Source: an uncultured Paracoccaceae bacterium (GTDB lineage Bacteria; Pseudomonadota; Alphaproteobacteria; Rhodobacterales; Rhodobacteraceae). Taken from it: a stretch of DNA of 64,000 nucleotides. The notes below the pieces were generated by a model. That model saw only the letters and a program-made list of their open reading frames with translations, did no database searches and was not told the DNA's origin. The stretch spans positions 124,001 through 188,000 of the forward strand of contig CALSNT010000011.1 of the NCBI GenBank assembly GCA_943787785.1, written 5' to 3'. The stretch's first letter is position 1; each line of letters starts with the position of its first letter. This document shows positions 2,137-9,656 of the stretch, one piece after another. Position numbers and translations under genes: made by a program.

Positions 2137-2616
2137 GTGGTTCATCTAGCCGAGCTCTACGCCATCGAGAAGGAGATCAGGGGTAAATCACCCCAAGAAC
2201 GCGCCGCTGTGCGCCAGTCCCGGGCCAAACCCGTCTTTGATGACCTTGAGGCCTGGCTTCACGCGCAACTTCCCAAGATCTCCGGCAAATCCCCATTGGC
2301 GCAGGCCATTCGCTATGCCCTGGGGTGGATGACCAAGGCGCGGCCCTATCTGTCCAACGGCCATCTGTCGCTCGACAACAATGCAGCCGAGCGCGCAATG
2401 AAGCCTGTTGCAATCGGCAGGAAAAATTATCTATTCGCGGGCTCTGAGCGCGGTGGCAAAGCCATGGCCATCGCCTACACCCTGATCGAAACCGCTAAAC
2501 TGAACAATGTCGACCCACAGGCGTGGCTCACATGGGTTCTCGCCCAAATCGCCGACCACAAGATCAACAGGATCGACGAACTCATGCCGTGGCGTTACGC
2601 TGCTCAGGCAGCGTAA
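2137..2616 (+). pseudogene. IS66 transposase (TnpC) C-terminal fragment
   Basis: About 155 residues of the C-terminal third of an IS66-family DDE transposase. They include '[20 protein letters not shown]', which carries the NNxxER motif with the catalytic glutamate, and '[13 protein letters not shown]' at the end. The same tail occurs almost unchanged in the other IS66 copy of this window (12302-13534, opposite strand). All sequence before the [10 protein letters not shown] segment is missing, so it is inactive. The IS66 terminal region appears to continue to about 2664 (GGACGGTCAC), which matches the equivalent flank of the second copy. Confidence 0.85.
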
Positions 2617-3135: not shown

Positions 3136-4464
3136 TTACCACGAAACCTGAACGCAAAGGCCTGATTCTGCTCGATTTTCTAAAGACAATATGGCTCCGC
3201 GCTGCGACGCCATATCCCCTACAATTGCAAGGCCAAGCCCATGTCCAACGACTCCAGAATCTAAGCGCACACCGCGACGTGTCGCAGCCTCAAGATCACT
3301 GGTAGAAATGCCAGGGCCATCGTCAAGTACGCGAATAAACCCGGTGTCGCGTGACCCTTCGATCTCAATCGCCACCGTCCTGCTCGTCCATTTTAAGGCG
3401 TTATCGATCAAATTTCCCAACAATTCAATCAGACTAAATTCGTCAAATGGGCAGATTGCGCCTTCGTCAATCTGCACCTTCCACGTGACGGGTTTGTCAC
3501 TGATGCGGTGCTTGAACGACTGCACGAGGCGATCAACAACCGGCCCGGCTTGGCACCATACATCCGTGGCGTTCCCGTCACGCACCCTGGCAAGTTCACG
3601 TTCTACAGAATGTTGCATCGCAGAGATCTGAGCGTCGATTTCGCCTGCGATGTCTGACCGGTCGATTTTATTGAGTTGCCTGGATACGCCTTGCAATATT
3701 GTCAGCGGCGTTTTGAGCCCGTGCGCCAAATCACTTGCACTGGCCCTGGCTCGTACAAGATTCTTGTCCTGTGCGTCGAGCAATTCATTCATTCCTGCGA
3801 CCAATGGCAGCAATTCAGTCGGATAATCTGTCGAAACGCGATCACGCTGCGTATCTGTGATGGTCGCAACTTCCGTTCGCACTTTTTCTAGCGGCCAAAG
3901 TCCGACACGAACTTGTGCCCAGGAAGCGAAGATCAGAAAAACGCCCAGAATTGCCATAGATATCGACAGGTTGGTTGTGAATCCGGCCACGGAAGCGTCG
4001 ATCTGCGCCTGGTCGATTGCAACTAACATGGTGATGGCTTGATCGCCGTCAGAGCTATTGAAAGAAACTATCCAACTCGCCGCAAGAACGTGGTCACCTG
4101 CCGTCGTATGCCCTGATTGAAATGTGATTTCGCCCGGCAAACTCGCGTGAGGTGTTTGGATGGCTCCTGCCCAAGATGACGGCGAAAGGAATGCAGATTG
4201 GCCATCAACGGTCAATTGCCAATAGTACCCGCTCAACGGTTCTTCAAATCGAGGATCAGATAGCGGCGCAACACTGATGTCTCCAGGCTGATTGATCGAT
4301 GTGCGATCCGTCAATTGCGATAGATAGACTTCAAGTTCTGCCTCGACACGGGCCTGAAAGTAAGTCTGAAACAGCAACTTCAGTATGATTGCAGTCGCTA
4401 TTAGGGCCATACCGGTTGAAAGTGCCGAGAACACCAGCAAACGCGCATTCAGTGATCGGAACAA
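3136..4464 (-). CDS. Sensor histidine kinase (PhoQ/QseC-like)
   Basis: Inner-membrane sensor kinase of 442 residues. There is one membrane helix near residues 10-33, an extracytoplasmic sensor segment of about 130 residues, and a second helix near 165-185. A dimerisation/phosphoacceptor helix follows with His248 in 'DLAHGLKTPL', then a HATPase_c domain with N-box (NLIDNALKW), G1 box (DDGPGIS) and G2 box (GHGLGLAI). All catalytic motifs are intact. The gene starts 16 bases inside the end of the response-regulator gene, so the two are translationally coupled. It is the last gene of the five-gene minus-strand operon that begins with the Ala-Ser repeat protein. The signal sensed is unknown; a PepSY-type exported partner is encoded two genes upstream. 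Confidence 0.9.
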   Translation of the reverse strand: MFRSLNARLLVFSALSTGMALIATAIILKLLFQTYFQARVEAELEVYLSQLTDRTSINQPGDISVAPLSDPRFEEPLSGYYWQLTVDGQSAFLSPSSWAGAIQTPHASLPGEITFQSGHTTAGDHVLAASWIVSFNSSDGDQAITMLVAIDQAQIDASVAGFTTNLSISMAILGVFLIFASWAQVRVGLWPLEKVRTEVATITDTQRDRVSTDYPTELLPLVAGMNELLDAQDKNLVRARASASDLAHGLKTPLTILQGVSRQLNKIDRSDIAGEIDAQISAMQHSVERELARVRDGNATDVWCQAGPVVDRLVQSFKHRISDKPVTWKVQIDEGAICPFDEFSLIELLGNLIDNALKWTSRTVAIEIEGSRDTGFIRVLDDGPGISTSDLEAATRRGVRLDSGVVGHGLGLAIVGDMASQRGAILSLENRAESGLCVQVSW

Positions 4465-5126
4465 GCGACGTCCTCTGGTATGGTGTAACCAAACCCGCGT
4501 TTGGTCTCGATCAGATCAATCCCCAATTTGCGTCGTAGGCGACCAACCAAAACCTCAACTGCATTGCTGTCGGGTTCCTGATCTCGAAAATAAATCATTT
4601 CTGCCAGATTCTCTTGCGAGATTGCAGACCCACGATTGTGCATCAGGTAGTTTAGCAATCTGTACTCGAGCGGCGTCAATTTGAGCGGTCTATCTGATAC
4701 AGAAGCGCGCATTTGGCGTAGATCAAGTTTCAGTTTGCCAGCAAACAAAATTGTTGATTTTTGTGAGGTGTTGCGGCGCAGCAAAGCTCTAAGTCGGGCG
4801 AGTAATTCCTCGACATGAAATGGTTTGGTCAGATAGTCATCTGCCCCTGCGTCGATGCCCTCGACCCGCTCGTTCCAACTGCTTTTCGCGCTCAGTAGAA
4901 GGACGGGAAAAGCGATATTCTCTTCGCGCCATTTGCGCAAAACACTGATCCCGTCGAGCTTTGGCAGACCGATATCCAGTATTGCTGCAGAATAGAGCTC
5001 GGTTCCGCCTTTGATCCAACCATCGTGACCGTCCGACGCGACTTCCGCGATAAATCCGTCGGACTCCAGCACCTCAGCCAAAAGGCCCGAGATCTTTGGT
5101 TCATCTTCTACAATCAGAATGCGCAT
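4449..5126 (-). CDS. OmpR/PhoB-family response regulator
   Basis: 225 residues. The receiver domain has the acidic pair ED near residues 7-8, phosphoacceptor Asp51 in 'AILDIGLPKLDG', and the conserved Lys in DYLTKPF. A winged-helix DNA-binding domain follows (LTPLEYRLLNYLM, then VEVLVGRLRRKLG and TKRGFGY). It is the cognate partner of the kinase whose gene it overlaps. The start codon follows the stop of the PepSY-protein gene with no gap. OmpR-class regulators commonly bind 11-bp direct repeats, and one is present upstream of the first gene of this operon (7428-7449), so autoregulation is a reasonable inference. Confidence 0.92.
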   Translation of the reverse strand: MRILIVEDEPKISGLLAEVLESDGFIAEVASDGHDGWIKGGTELYSAAILDIGLPKLDGISVLRKWREENIAFPVLLLSAKSSWNERVEGIDAGADDYLTKPFHVEELLARLRALLRRNTSQKSTILFAGKLKLDLRQMRASVSDRPLKLTPLEYRLLNYLMHNRGSAISQENLAEMIYFRDQEPDSNAVEVLVGRLRRKLGIDLIETKRGFGYTIPEDVACSDH

Positions 5127-5657
5127 CTAACAGCCGCTTACCCCGGCAATACGCCCCGATCCTGCATGCACAGTGACGGTTTGCACTGCACCACCTGAGG
5201 AAACCATTTTCAGCTGATAGATCGGCCTGCCTGACTGTTCGGAAAAACCAACATTGATCAGGCGACCAGGGTGGCGTTTTTTTACTTTGGCCACGACTTG
5301 GCGCAACGGCATTGCGTTTTCACGATCGATGGCGCGCTGCGCATTGCGCATATCTGTTTGACTGATCGTGGCGTGTTCAGGAACCGTCCCAAGTGTGCAA
5401 CCGTCTGCCTTGTTTTCTCCTTCTGGTAGTTCAGCTCCTGAAGGTGTCGACGCTGGGCTAGCGCTTGATGCCGGGGACGCAGCGGACGCGGGCGAAGCAG
5501 GGGACGCTGCCGATGCCGCGGATGCTGCAGACGCACTACTGGCCGCGTGGGCACGACTGAGGCCGAACAGAGCGGGTGCCGCATAGGCAGCTCCAGCCGC
5601 AAGGCCCAAACGTGCCAGCGCTTGGCGACGCGTAACTCTCTGATTTCTAATCTTCAT
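5127..5657 (-). CDS. Tat-exported protein: Ala-Ser-x triplet stretch plus PepSY-like domain
   Basis: 176 residues. The N-terminus is a twin-arginine signal (TRRQALARLGLAAGAAYAAP) with likely cleavage after AHA at about residue 38. Residues 39-73 are a pure triplet run of the form A-S-x, where x is A, P or S: about 12 triplets, some PSP-like. The C-terminal part, about 100-172, has the length and pattern of a PepSY domain: a helix (RNAQRAIDREN), a helix with VVAKVKKRHPG, then strands GFSEQSGRPIYQLKMV and VTVHAGSGRIAGV. The protein is predicted to be periplasmic. The gene overlaps the HPr-kinase/PqqD gene by 11 bases and abuts the response-regulator gene, so the five genes are co-transcribed. 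PepSY proteins are often encoded beside OmpR/kinase pairs; the triplet run is not usual for them. The PepSY assignment is by pattern, not by alignment. Confidence 0.72.
   Translation of the reverse strand: MKIRNQRVTRRQALARLGLAAGAAYAAPALFGLSRAHAASSASAASAASAASPASPASAASPASSASPASTPSGAELPEGENKADGCTLGTVPEHATISQTDMRNAQRAIDRENAMPLRQVVAKVKKRHPGRLINVGFSEQSGRPIYQLKMVSSGGAVQTVTVHAGSGRIAGVSGC
5439..5543 (-). repeat. Coding microsatellite-like run for Ala-Ser-x triplets (PepSY protein)
   Basis: About 35 codons encoding alternating Ala-Ser-(Ala/Pro/Ser) triplets, visible in DNA as a degenerate 9-base period in the series GCx-AGC/TCx-GCx. Codon choice varies between repeats, so the period is conserved at the protein level more than at the DNA level. 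This argues for selection on the peptide over recent slippage alone. Confidence 0.7.
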
Positions 5658-6885
5658 GGGCGGCCAGTTGTGCTCTGTTGACGCAGGCTATCAGTCTGTT
5701 TTGAACGAGATCCTTAAGAACCCTGCTGCAGTCTCGATGAATTTGATCAGCTGGGACTGAAGGGAAAGCTTCCGAAAGTATATAGACAACGTCTGCAAGA
5801 GTCATGGACGACGCTAGAAGCCGCCAGATTGCACCCGACGTTCCATTAAGCCGAAGCACACCAATCCCTTCGGCATCGGCCAAATAGGTCTCTTCGCCAA
5901 CGTCGACGACTGTTGCTCCGGTCTCTTGGATATACGCTTGCAGAACGTCAAACTGCGGCGCTGGCTTCGATTGCGCTTCTAGGTCAGCCTCTCGGGGCGT
6001 CAACATAGGGAATTTCTCGGTATCGACTGACGGTTGATTCCACACTTCAAACGTCGCTTCCAATAGATCAGCGGCTTCTTCTGCACCGGTATAGCTCAGA
6101 TCGAAGAGTTCAGCCGAACTGACAATCTGGTGGGCCGTTTTCAGGATGTGCCCGGCATGGGTACTGCGAGCAAAATTCTGGGATATCAACTCATTCAAAG
6201 CGGTAGCCGGATCGATTGGCCTCAGTTCGGGTGCAGCCGTCTGACGTCGGTCTAGCAAAACGATTGCGCCGACTGGAAGTTTAGTGTTCCTGTCTACGAC
6301 AGCGTCGCTCTCAAGGTACTTATACTGGAAATTTTCAGGGCCATTGTTGTTGCGCACCCAATCTTCAAATCCCTTTGACATCTCTGCCGGTTGAGGCAAT
6401 CGGACGCGCGGCAGAATTCCATTCGCAACGCCCAAAATTCCACTGTCTGGTGATGCGGTTATCGATAAAAAATCGTCGGTGAACAGCCTATGCCCGCGAT
6501 AAGCAAGAACGGCAGCCAGCTGGCTCTTGCCTGCCCTGCGACGGTTCGGAAACAATACTAAGCGGCCATTGAATTCAACCGCCGCACAATGAACGCAAAG
6601 CCGCGAGGGAAACGTCCGAATTTGTTCCCAGCTAAGTTCTGCGATCAAATCACAAACCGCGTTCAATGCATTCCAGCTTTTCGCCTCAACATTTCCAGTG
6701 GCTAGGCACCGAAATTTCCCTTCGTTTTCCCCATTTATCGACATGAACGGCACTTGTTCTGACGATGCGTCAGAAAACGAATGCGGCCAGTTCGCCATGA
6801 TTTGGTTGATGATTGGAACCAACTCTTCGGCGTTGCTGAGATGCATCGGAGCATTCAGGTCTGAAATTTTGAGGGCTATCGGCAA
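5647..6885 (-). CDS. HPr-kinase-like P-loop protein fused to a PqqD domain
   Basis: 412 residues. The middle resembles the HPr kinase/phosphorylase-related fold: LCVHCAAVEFNGRLVLFPN leads into a P-loop RRRAGKSQLAAVLAYRG, followed by RLFTDDF as the likely second acidic metal-binding motif. The Walker A is unusual: the first Gly of GxxxxGKS is Asn114. Residues about 325-405 form a PqqD-like domain (LRLNGTSGAIWRLLASS, then a winged-helix-like tail). PqqD domains are leader-peptide recognition elements in several peptide-modification pathways. HPr-kinase-related proteins are known to co-occur with PqqD-family proteins. The gene lies between two exported Ser-rich proteins and overlaps one of them, so these are the obvious candidate clients. 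The TTG start at 6885 has no good ribosome site; an ATG at 6846 is an alternative. The biochemical role is inferred. Confidence 0.7.
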   Translation of the reverse strand: MPIALKISDLNAPMHLSNAEELVPIINQIMANWPHSFSDASSEQVPFMSINGENEGKFRCLATGNVEAKSWNALNAVCDLIAELSWEQIRTFPSRLCVHCAAVEFNGRLVLFPNRRRAGKSQLAAVLAYRGHRLFTDDFLSITASPDSGILGVANGILPRVRLPQPAEMSKGFEDWVRNNNGPENFQYKYLESDAVVDRNTKLPVGAIVLLDRRQTAAPELRPIDPATALNELISQNFARSTHAGHILKTAHQIVSSAELFDLSYTGAEEAADLLEATFEVWNQPSVDTEKFPMLTPREADLEAQSKPAPQFDVLQAYIQETGATVVDVGEETYLADAEGIGVLRLNGTSGAIWRLLASSMTLADVVYILSEAFPSVPADQIHRDCSRVLKDLVQNRLIACVNRAQLAAHED

Positions 6886-7002
6886 ATTGTGAACCTGAAC
6901 AAGAACTGACTACTGCAGACTAGCGGCGCTTAGTTGAGATTTAAACACACGACCGCATGGCATTTAGGCTTTCCATGCGGTCGCGCCAGTAACTCTAGTT
7001 TC

Positions 7003-7341
7003 TTAGTTCGTGCAGAAACCAGCCCCAGCGGGGTCTGTAACAGACGGATCGCAATTTTCCGAACTCGAAGGCCCAGAAGAGGCGCTGGCTGCAGACGCCG
7101 CACTTGGTGTAGATGCGGCTGAGGCCGTGCTGGCGGCAGACGCTGCACTGGCAGCCGAAGCCGGGCTGGCCGCAGACGCCGCGCTAGCTGCCGAAGCTGC
7201 GCTGGCAGCTGATGCGCCACTGGCAGCGTGCGCTGCGCTAAGTTTGGTCAATGTCGGAACGGTGTATGCCGTAAGCGCAATCGCGCCAATCCGCCCGATT
7301 ACCTTGCGGCGGCTCAGTTTTGTGTCCGTCTTAGCTGTCAT
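7003..7341 (-). CDS. Tat-exported Ala-Ser-x repeat protein
   Basis: 112 residues from an ATG preceded by GAGGACAGATC. A twin-arginine signal (LSRRKVIGRIGAIALTAY) ends in AHA near residue 39. It is strikingly like the signal of the PepSY protein two genes downstream (same RR-x(4)-R-x-G spacing, AY-x(2)-P, LS-x-AHA-AS). Residues 40 to about 93 are some 17-18 consecutive triplets of the form A-S-x, nearly all ASA, with occasional ASP, AST and PSA. The last 19 residues (ENCDPS..GFCTN) carry two Cys. There is no other domain. It is the first gene of the operon, about 118 bases upstream of the kinase/PqqD gene. No family is known to me. Possible roles are a substrate to be modified on Ser, a wall- or surface-associated disordered polypeptide, or a structural filler. 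Confidence 0.75.
   Translation of the reverse strand: MTAKTDTKLSRRKVIGRIGAIALTAYTVPTLTKLSAAHAASGASAASAASAASAASAASPASAASAASAASTASAASTPSAASAASASSGPSSSENCDPSVTDPAGAGFCTN
7063..7224 (-). repeat. Coding repeat run for about 18 Ala-Ser-x triplets
   Basis: A 9-base-period run (one Ala, one Ser and one variable codon per unit) covering about half of the gene. The units vary in synonymous positions (GCx and AGC/TCx choice), so the run is not a clean recent expansion. It is longer and more uniform than the run in the neighbouring PepSY protein gene. Confidence 0.75.
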
Positions 7342-7427
7342 GATCTGTCCTCTTTTCCTACTCAAACGCGCGAAATGTCGCGTGCCATCGCCAAAAGTCT
7401 CATGTCTGGGTGAACAGTTAGCTTAAC

Positions 7428-7449
7428 GCGTTTGTCAGCTTTCTGTCAG
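7428..7449 (-). promoter_or_regulatory. Candidate OmpR/PhoB-type 11-bp direct repeat
   Basis: On the minus strand, two 11-base units lie head to tail: CTGACAGAAAG then CTGACAAACGC. The identical cores CTGACA are exactly 11 bases apart, the spacing bound by OmpR/PhoB-class dimers. The site is about 87-108 bases upstream of the start of the Ala-Ser repeat gene. A response regulator of that class is encoded in the same operon. The second CTGACA could also serve as a -35-like element. The link to this regulator is inferred. Confidence 0.5.
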
Positions 7450-7846: not shown

Positions 7847-8759
7847 TTACGCGCATGACGGCGGCGCTCGCAAGCGTTGGATCGCGGCAAGGATGGCGCG
7901 CACCATCGTGCCGGTCACCGCGACCTCGGCAAGTTGGAAGGTGATGGCGCGGGCGTGGCGCACGACCCGAGCACCGATCTTTATCAGCTTGAGCTGGAGG
8001 CTGGTCAACGACCAATCCGCCATCGCTTCGGGCAACTCGATGCAGCGCAGGAAGGTGGCCAGATTGTAGGCCAGCGCGTGCAGGTGCAGCCGGACCTCGT
8101 TGTCGCGGAACCGCTTGCACGACAGGCGCGTCCAGTGGAAGGCATATTTGCCCTCTTTGATGTGCTGCTCGGCGGTGCCACGTCGATTGTAGAAACGTGT
8201 GACCTCGTCCGGCTCCATGGGCAGGTTGGTCACGATGAAGCCGATCTTTGGAAACAGCTCGCCCGGGTGCCATTCGATCTTGCAGATGACACGGCGCGGC
8301 TTGTCCCAGGATGCGGCCTGATACTGGAAGTCCTCGTAGAACCGCTTCACTTTGGTCTTTGAGGGCCGCCCCACGGGCCGGGTCAACCGGTGGGCGATGC
8401 AGCCTTCCAAAACTGCGTTCTTCTTCATCCGGATGGCGTAGAAATAGCCCGCATCTTCCAGCCGCTCATAGAGTGCCGGGATCGCGTAGGCGGCGTCAGC
8501 GCGGAAGAAGCGGCCACCAAGGTTGCGACCAGCATAACGGGCGATGACGGGATCGAGGACATCCCGCCAGCCGTCGGCGCTGTGGACATTGCCGTTTCGC
8601 AGGGCGCAGCGTTCCAGCATGCCAAACTGGTTGAACAGGAAGTTCGGGTGGTAGCAGGTGCACTCGAAGTGCCCATTCCAGGCGGCACCTTCCTGATCGC
8701 CATGGGTCGGACTGACCGAGCTGTCCATGTCCAGCGTGATGTACTTCAGCCCGTTGCGG
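7847..8759 (-). pseudogene. IS1380-family transposase, N-terminus removed by IS21
   Basis: About 300 residues of the C-terminal two thirds of an IS1380-type DDE transposase: ITLDMDSSVSPTHGDQ (a catalytic Asp region), FRADAAYAIPALYERLEDAG, then YNRRGTAEQHIKEGK with the typical Glu and ending RLRAPPSCA. The frame is open up to 8759, where the left end of the downstream IS21 element (TGTCAACGGCGG) begins. The N-terminal third is therefore gone. The missing part is not found beyond the other end of the IS21 copy, so the insertion was followed by deletion or rearrangement. Confidence 0.85.
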
Positions 8760-8897: not shown

Positions 8898-9656
8898 TTA
8901 GTTTTTGGCGCGTCGTGATTTGCTCTGGTTGAGGCGGTAGCTTTCGCCGTTCATTTCCAGAATGTTCACATGATGGGTCAGGCGATCCAGCAGGGCACCT
9001 GTGAGGCGTTCGGTCCCGAATGTGTCGGTCCATTCTTCGAACGGCAGGTTGCTAGTAATCAGGGTTGAGCCGCGTTCGTAGCGCTGTGAGATCAGCTCGA
9101 AGAGCAGTTCAGCGCCGGTTTTGCTGAGGGGTACGAAGCCCAGCTCGTCGATGATCAGCAGTTTGACCTTCGCCAGTTGGCGCTGCAACCGGAGCAAGCG
9201 CTTTTCGTCTCTGGATTCCATCAGTTCATTGACCAACGCCGCCGCTGTTACAAACGCCACCGGCAGCCCCTTTTGACACGCTGCAAGGCCCAGCCCGAGC
9301 GCGACGTGGGTTTTGCCGGTGCCGGACGGGCCGAGCGCGATGACGTTCTCTTGGCGCTCGATCCAATCACAGCGTGCCAATTCCAGAACCATCATCTTGT
9401 TCAGCGATGGGATCGCCTTGAAGTCGAAGCTGTCCAGGCTTTTGACCGCCGGGAACTTCGCCGACTTGATCCTGCGTTCGACCATGCGTCGTTCCCGGTC
9501 GATCAGTTCCAGCTCGGTCAGCCGGGCCAGATAGCGGACATGGTCCACGCCCTCTGCGGCGCAGATACGCGCTTGCTTGTCGTGCTCACGCAGGAATGTG
9601 GGCAACCGCAGGGTTTTGAGATGATGGGCCAGCAGGAGTTCTGGTGCGTCAGTCAT
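8898..9656 (-). CDS. istB: IS21 helper ATPase IstB
   Basis: 252-residue AAA+ ATPase of the IstB/DnaC type. Walker A is GPSGTGKTHVALGLG, Walker B is LLIIDELGF, and sensor motifs are TLITSNLPFEEW and GALLDRLTHHV. IstB assists the IS21 transposase in target selection and strand transfer. The gene overlaps the 3' end of istA by 4 bases, the usual arrangement. IstB itself looks complete, but its partner gene is broken. Confidence 0.93.
   Translation of the reverse strand: MTDAPELLLAHHLKTLRLPTFLREHDKQARICAAEGVDHVRYLARLTELELIDRERRMVERRIKSAKFPAVKSLDSFDFKAIPSLNKMMVLELARCDWIERQENVIALGPSGTGKTHVALGLGLAACQKGLPVAFVTAAALVNELMESRDEKRLLRLQRQLAKVKLLIIDELGFVPLSKTGAELLFELISQRYERGSTLITSNLPFEEWTDTFGTERLTGALLDRLTHHVNILEMNGESYRLNQSKSRRAKN

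Follow-up and report, generated by a model that had tools for sequence, protein, structure and literature searches.

Why does a small gene for a protein with a twin-arginine translocation (Tat) signal and a serine tract lie directly upstream of a kinase that carries its own PqqD-type domain? The question is raised by a five-gene operon in a 64,000-nucleotide stretch of DNA from an uncultured Paracoccaceae bacterium (contig CALSNT010000011.1, positions 124,001 to 188,000), which was analysed whole and is called the window here. Gene 1 is the small precursor gene, gene 2 encodes the kinase fused to what we read as a RiPP recognition element (RRE; RiPP, ribosomally synthesised and post-translationally modified peptide), gene 3 a second Tat-signal protein with a PepSY domain, and genes 4 and 5 a two-component pair (Table 1).

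At a probability of about 0.62, we favour a RiPP-type system that couples serine phosphorylation to export. In the cytoplasm, the C-terminal PqqD-type domain of gene 2 would bind a YxxPx[L/M/F] stretch in the Tat signals of the gene 1 and gene 3 proteins, and the fused HprK-like domain would move phosphate to serine, sometimes threonine, of the disordered tract behind the signal. Once gene 2 let go of the signal, Tat export would follow, and a signal peptidase would cut after the AxA site, leaving modified gene 1 and gene 3 products in the periplasm, where the PepSY product would probably be the input or brake of the gene 5/gene 4 pair. Leader binding, phosphorylation, the sequence of events and the part played by the two-component pair are inferred, as is the number of sites discussed below. 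An initial annotation of the window had already proposed that the PqqD domain reads the Tat signal, that the kinase acts on the serine part and that Tat exports afterwards; this finds partial support by comparison, namely in the YxxP motif within the signal, in a domain nearest to YxxP-binding elements and in a signal that accompanies only the kinase. If the reading is right, RiPP-style precursor modification and Tat export use one signal, so that the signal peptide would also be the tag by which the enzyme recognises its substrate. The pair would offer a simple two-gene system for asking whether phosphorylation gates Tat export, and would suggest a route to phosphate on proteins beyond the cytoplasmic membrane, where ATP is scarce.

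A Tat-YxxP signal and the kinase beside it

Tat use by the precursors is predicted from their signals, in which a twin-arginine n-region, a hydrophobic region and an AxA site are all present; the gene 3 protein also has a weak match to TIGR01409, below the cutoff (12.7 vs 16.7). With the precursors aligned on their signals, a tyrosine and, three residues on, a proline followed by x-[LMFV] are found inside the hydrophobic region and are as conserved as the twin arginine itself. The evidence comes from 67 non-redundant loci, selected by the kinase and not by the motif, and read locus by locus: about 62 have YxxP in the small protein upstream, L036 has FxxP instead, L055 lacks a precursor, and contig ends truncate three more. 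Subtilases (S8 proteases) and PepSY proteins at kinase loci have the motif too. The initial annotation had described the two Tat signals of the operon as near-identical; their identity is in fact no more than about 47% over 32 residues, the common part being RR...AYxxPxLxxLSxAHA.

We considered whether YxxP is a common trait of Tat signals, and this is ruled out: none of about 50 other Tat signals (about 23 from the window genome and 27 from relatives) has [YFW]xxP between the twin arginine and the cleavage site, the sole match to that expression (L139) being beyond the signal. A leader profile of 32 residues, built from 47 signals, gave 24 matches over 14 whole kinase-bearing genomes, one or two per genome and none away from the kinase locus. 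In 20 relatives that lack the kinase there were merely two weak partial matches, to the twin-arginine end. As the profile matches are confined to kinase loci, the Tat-YxxP signal and the kinase-RRE co-occur, and the signal is found nowhere else in the genomes examined. A Fisher test of motif presence returned p ~5e-33, a value that treats related sequences as independent and counts 62 loci gathered with a motif-containing pattern; the locus-by-locus reading is the better evidence. HprK itself acts on a cytoplasmic protein, and the kinase could in principle target another such protein, with the Tat-serine proteins adjoining it by chance. We regard this as very improbable, given a signal type confined to the kinase locus, a pair conserved over alpha-, beta- and gammaproteobacteria, and three kinds of partner bearing the same signal and tract.

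Two genes form the conserved core, those for the small Tat-signal serine-tract protein and the HprK-like kinase/PqqD fusion. The initial annotation had named a lack of conservation outside this strain as a refuting outcome; the neighbourhood proved to be conserved beyond it. In the family of the window, 31 of 395 sampled genomes match a gene 2 profile. Over genome contigs the same profile recovered 55 loci, the weakest of them remote kinase relatives only, from Rhodobacterales, Rhizobiales, Rhodospirillales, Halomonas, Guyparkeria, Halothiobacillus, a Solemya symbiont and Limnobacter. At class level 34 of 385 sampled genomes match, some with an unfused kinase, and the pair or its split forms occur in many Alpha- and some Beta- and Gammaproteobacteria. 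Among the loci inspected, an unfused kinase can have a separate RRE gene adjoining (L049, L034, L030, L036, L186, L188), and Tat-YxxP precursors adjoin unfused kinases in L185-L189. Nearly all uncut loci have, directly upstream of the kinase, a gene for a small protein that joins a Tat signal to a low-complexity tract. The initial annotation took the five-gene operon as the unit; this is ruled out because several loci (L021-L025 among others) retain genes 1 and 2 alone.

On the Paracoccus plasmid examined, RefSeq gives the kinase-RRE no name beyond 'PqqD family protein' and lists its precursor as a 'hypothetical protein'; the reading we favour would, if true, explain a family annotated merely in these terms. 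At one locus, in Rhodovulum strictum (L048:7341-9944), an 867-residue protein encoded directly downstream of the kinase resembles an outer-membrane beta-barrel receptor and has no Pfam match.

The kinase and its recognition domain

The PqqD domain of gene 2 scores over the curated cutoff of PF05402 (42.5 bits vs 23.4). Compared with solved structures, the C-terminal domain of the family profile matches TbiB1 at 1.3e-11 and LppB at 9e-9, with PbaB1 and TfuB1 also found, while canonical PqqD is reached at merely 0.012; by sequence profile, from which the RRE assignment is made, the domain is thus nearest to the recognition elements of lasso peptides and of linear polyphosphorylated peptides (LPP), not to canonical PqqD. 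Those elements bind [Y/W]xxPx[L/V] leaders, and in LppB N33 and D70 touch the leader proline kink and the leader tyrosine (PMC13381572). Among 42 aligned relatives of gene 2 the equivalent N347 position holds asparagine in 37 and aspartate in 5, and D385 is kept in 41. It is predicted that the PqqD-type domain binds the YxxP stretch of its partners' Tat signals; the motif and a recognition domain of YxxP type, each found independently, concur. Sequence comparison by itself shows that signal and kinase-RRE go together, that the motif is there, that catalytic and binding residues are conserved, and how the genes are ordered.

The HPr kinase domain of gene 2 falls under the Pfam cutoff (21.5 vs 33.3), and the protein matches TIGR04352 at 7.6e-14, short of that family's curated cutoff; the assignment as an HprK-like kinase is supported by that match together with invariant catalytic residues and the predicted fold. 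H99, R117, G119, K120, S121 and D138 are present in all 42 relatives and D137 in 41, and H99, K120, S121, D137 and D138 correspond to H148, K169, S170, D186 and D187 of BsfK (PMC10368454). An AlphaFold model of gene 2 (predicted local distance difference test, pLDDT, 94) has the HprK/PEPCK fold, and a fold search with the whole kinase-RRE model, which hardly probed the RRE part, returned PEPCK and HprK folds. TIGR04352 is matched by 40 of the 42 relatives and TIGR04353 by 4. We also tried filing gene 2 under the NCBIfam system HPr-rel-A (TIGR04352, HprK-related kinase A, with TIGR04353, PqqD family chaperone) and rejected this: at 51.5 bits against a curated cutoff of 200, it is outside the curated TIGR04352 family.

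How such an enzyme pair can work is known from relatives. Phosphorylation by BsfK is accelerated by its RRE partner BsfB1 (PMC10368454), and LppK puts one to four phosphates on one serine of its precursor (PMC13381572). An improbable alternative is that gene 2 is a Tat proofreading escort, whose nucleotide-binding domain powers release with no serine modification. Redox enzyme maturation proteins such as DmsD and TorD are cytoplasmic factors that likewise recognise a Tat signal by its hydrophobic part ahead of export; they bind the hydrophobic and C-terminal signal parts (PMC3316669), which is where YxxP is located here, and the S8 and PepSY partners, being folded, might require an escort. The small precursor, however, has little to fold, the catalytic histidine, lysine, serine and aspartate set is invariant, and related kinases phosphorylate precursors whose leaders are RRE-bound. 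No family kinship between gene 2 and the redox enzyme maturation proteins was seen and, unlike them, the gene 2 reader bears its own modifying enzyme.

Serine tracts and the number of acceptor sites

The (Ala-Ser-x)n tracts pointed out by the initial annotation are real. Gene 1 uses all four alanine and five serine codons in its tract, and such diversity shows that the tract is maintained at the protein level. Chance or nucleotide slippage is ruled out as the origin of the repeats by this diversity and by serine spacing that is kept while the companion residues change. Across loci the tracts take the forms (SAA)n, (SEP)n, (SRP)n, (SGP)n, (SYSRP)n, (TRP/SRP)n, RS-rich and Gly-Ser. Serine is their constant residue, and alanine, arginine and glutamate are each absent from several precursors; in L061 and L098 threonine takes the place of much of the serine. 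A serine period of three was found in 44 of 57 precursor tracts, a set that contained two misassigned open reading frames (ORFs; L016, L035) removed in the later spacing analysis. At L049:5276-5593, next to a kinase and RRE encoded separately, the precursor's tract is of Arg/Lys-Ser (RS) type and recalls eukaryotic SR proteins. In L043, L044, L059, L060 and L091 the tract is followed by a short hydrophobic C-terminal peptide (e.g. MPIWMRRMLGI, MPLWLQQFLGLV), in place of which precursors of the window's clade have a two-cysteine C terminus.

The maintained period of three fits many acceptor sites, whereas the known cases and the position of one serine fit a single site. We offer only tentatively the more ambitious proposal of a proteobacterial class of export-licensed multi-phosphoserine proteins, in which the RRE would read the Tat-signal motif, the kinase would mark many serines and completion would free the signal for Tat, the signal-plus-tract cassette being a general tag for modified export that was grafted onto the PepSY partner and the subtilase. 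Rather unlikely, in our judgement, is modification of a single serine near the mature start, like Ser3 of BsfA and LppA, with the tract as a spacer or surface-active region. The characterised relatives do modify one residue (PMC10368454, PMC13381572), and about 95% of the small precursors have a serine or threonine 16-20 residues past the tyrosine, roughly the LppA/BsfA spacing of 18-19; but the serine density and its period of three span the whole tract and are kept as other residues change, which a single site would not need. It is also improbable that the phosphate is an intermediate and the final mark something else, for example a sugar phosphate added by an enzyme encoded elsewhere, as has been proposed for PsmN-type partners. 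In pseudomycoidin synthesis PsmK phosphorylates and PsmN then adds a hexose (PMC9266682), and a nucleotidyltransferase also occurs in LPP clusters (PMC13381572); yet nothing like a nucleotidyltransferase gene stood out among the conserved neighbours here, some neighbour clusters being unannotated.

Several points weigh against phosphorylation of the tract as we propose it. LppK and BsfK modify one serine apiece (PMC13381572, PMC10368454), so that modification of the tract at many sites is a conjecture. Phosphorylation of BsfA was unaffected by Tyr(-17)Ala and by Leu(-12)Ala (PMC10368454), and YxxP therefore need not be necessary for kinase action. The window's P-loop, FPNRRRAGKS, lacks the classical first glycine that many distant relatives keep (e.g. 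TGPSRAGKS), although its GKS is intact. Some tracts are mainly glycine with few serines (Rhizobiaceae L032, Phyllobacteriaceae L041), and the subtilase of Gemmobacter aestuarii (L047:4087-5529) has an acidic tract, with DDDDDDDD where other partners have serine. It looks as if the aspartate run supplied, as a permanent negative charge, what a phosphorylated tract would supply elsewhere.

Related systems, add-on modules and the operon

The initial annotation knew of no described system of this make-up, which was too strong a statement: phosphorylated lasso peptides (PMC10368454) and LPP (PMC13381572) use the same enzyme pair. LPP (LppA/LppK/LppB/LppS) were described in Bacillota in 2026 (PMC13381572) and share with the window system an HprK-like kinase, a YxxP-reading RRE and a precursor with a conserved YxxP leader at one locus, together with a variable C terminus. 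In contrast to LPP, a single polypeptide here usually combines kinase and RRE, a Tat signal serves as the leader, and the mature portion consists of a long serine-periodic tract; the systems are found in Proteobacteria, and proteins of greater size (PepSY, S8 protease) also bear the tag. A signal-peptidase-like enzyme removes the LPP leader (PMC13381572); neither a SpI-like peptidase nor an MsbA-like or other ATP-binding cassette (ABC) exporter nor a nucleotidyltransferase was seen in the window operon or among those neighbour clusters that carry an annotation. With no such peptidase or MsbA-like exporter seen and a Tat signal for a leader, the system works in an LPP-like way yet is outside LPP as defined; if our reading is true, Proteobacteria would gain a counterpart of these peptides.

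The phosphorylated lasso peptide systems (BsfK/BsfB1, PadeK, ThcoK, PsmK; PMC10368454, PMC9266682) have a kinase with the same catalytic residues and a YxxPxL leader, whereas the window product would be a linear exported protein. Filing the locus with lasso peptides was rejected: the macrolactam cyclase and B2 protease are absent from the five-gene operon, and none was recognised in neighbour clusters, some of them unannotated. The literature searched, most subscription journals and supplementary files being outside its reach, yielded no description of an HprK-PqqD fusion paired with Tat substrates, and the word 'kinase' is absent from the main text of the two RRE survey papers searched. The two-gene system is apparently an undescribed, widespread relative of known peptide-phosphorylating systems.

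To this precursor-kinase pair two alternative modules are added. One is the PepSY and two-component module of the window, found in about 12 genera in the same order; the other, at 16 loci, joins an S8 protease to an extracytoplasmic function (ECF) sigma factor. On the kinase tree a single gain or loss accounts for each. The PepSY domain of gene 3 scores below the Pfam cutoff (20.3 vs 24), and the model of its C-terminal domain (pLDDT about 90) has as best PDB matches, at a weak E of 0.03-0.05, 4exr and YpmB 2gu3, which we take to be PepSY-type proteins. Genes 3-5 share order and domain content with PepSY-OmpR regulator-sensor kinase triads. Unlike gene 3, the PepSY proteins of the ordinary triads examined are without a Tat-YxxP signal or serine tract: neither was found in any of 15 PepSY-matching proteins of relatives, several of them in such triads, whereas PepSY proteins adjoining an HprK-RRE kinase have both. 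Attached as it is to at least three kinds of protein (small precursor, PepSY and S8), the signal-plus-tract cassette appears to be the substrate unit.

All five ORFs of the operon were found on the minus strand (Table 1), and the junctions given by the initial annotation are exact, with overlaps of 11 bases (5647-5657) and 16 bases (4449-4464) and a zero gap (5127/5126). Genes 1 and 2 are 117 bases apart.

Table 1. Coordinates of the operon and its features within the window.
Feature	Position	Strand	Remark
Five-gene operon	7365-3136	-	ORF list of the 64-kb window
Gene 1, small precursor: Tat signal, (Ala-Ser-x)n tract, two-Cys C-terminal segment (CDPSVTDPAGAGFC)	7003..7341	-	ATG at 7341 gives 112 aa
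Gene 1, alternative start	7365	-	TTG
Gene 1, twin arginine	7306..7311	-	
Gene 1, YTVPTL (YxxPxL motif within Tat signal)	7249..7266	-	putative recognition motif
Gene 1, tract with Ser at nearly each third position	7066..7221	-	52 residues
Gene 2, HprK-like kinase with C-terminal RRE/PqqD domain	5647..6885	-	one chain
Gene 2, P-loop RAGKS	6523..6537	-	residues 117-121
Gene 2, D137-D138	6472..6477	-	equivalent to BsfK D186-D187 (PMC10368454)
Gene 2, RRE/PqqD domain	5680..5940	-	residues 316-402; N347 and D385 equivalent to LppB N33 and D70 (PMC13381572)
Gene 3, Tat-YxxP signal, Ala-Ser-Pro tract and C-terminal PepSY domain	5127..5657	-	
Gene 3, YAAPAL (YxxPxL motif within Tat signal)	5568..5585	-	
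Gene 3, Ser-periodic tract	5439..5543	-	
Gene 4, OmpR-type response regulator	4449..5126	-	
Gene 5, membrane sensor histidine kinase	3136..4464	-	

The insertion-sequence genes on its flanks place the operon in a transposon-rich stretch: IS66, an orphan helix-turn-helix (HTH) fragment, a DDE_Tnp_1_4 transposase and IstB/IS21 (window 2137-2616, 2780-2986, 7847-8728 and 8898-9656), the orphan HTH fragment probably being an insertion-sequence remnant. In another genome of the window's genus (L192:3146-4570) an insertion with a 474-residue transposase-like ORF, located between the PepSY and regulator genes, interrupts the PepSY gene.

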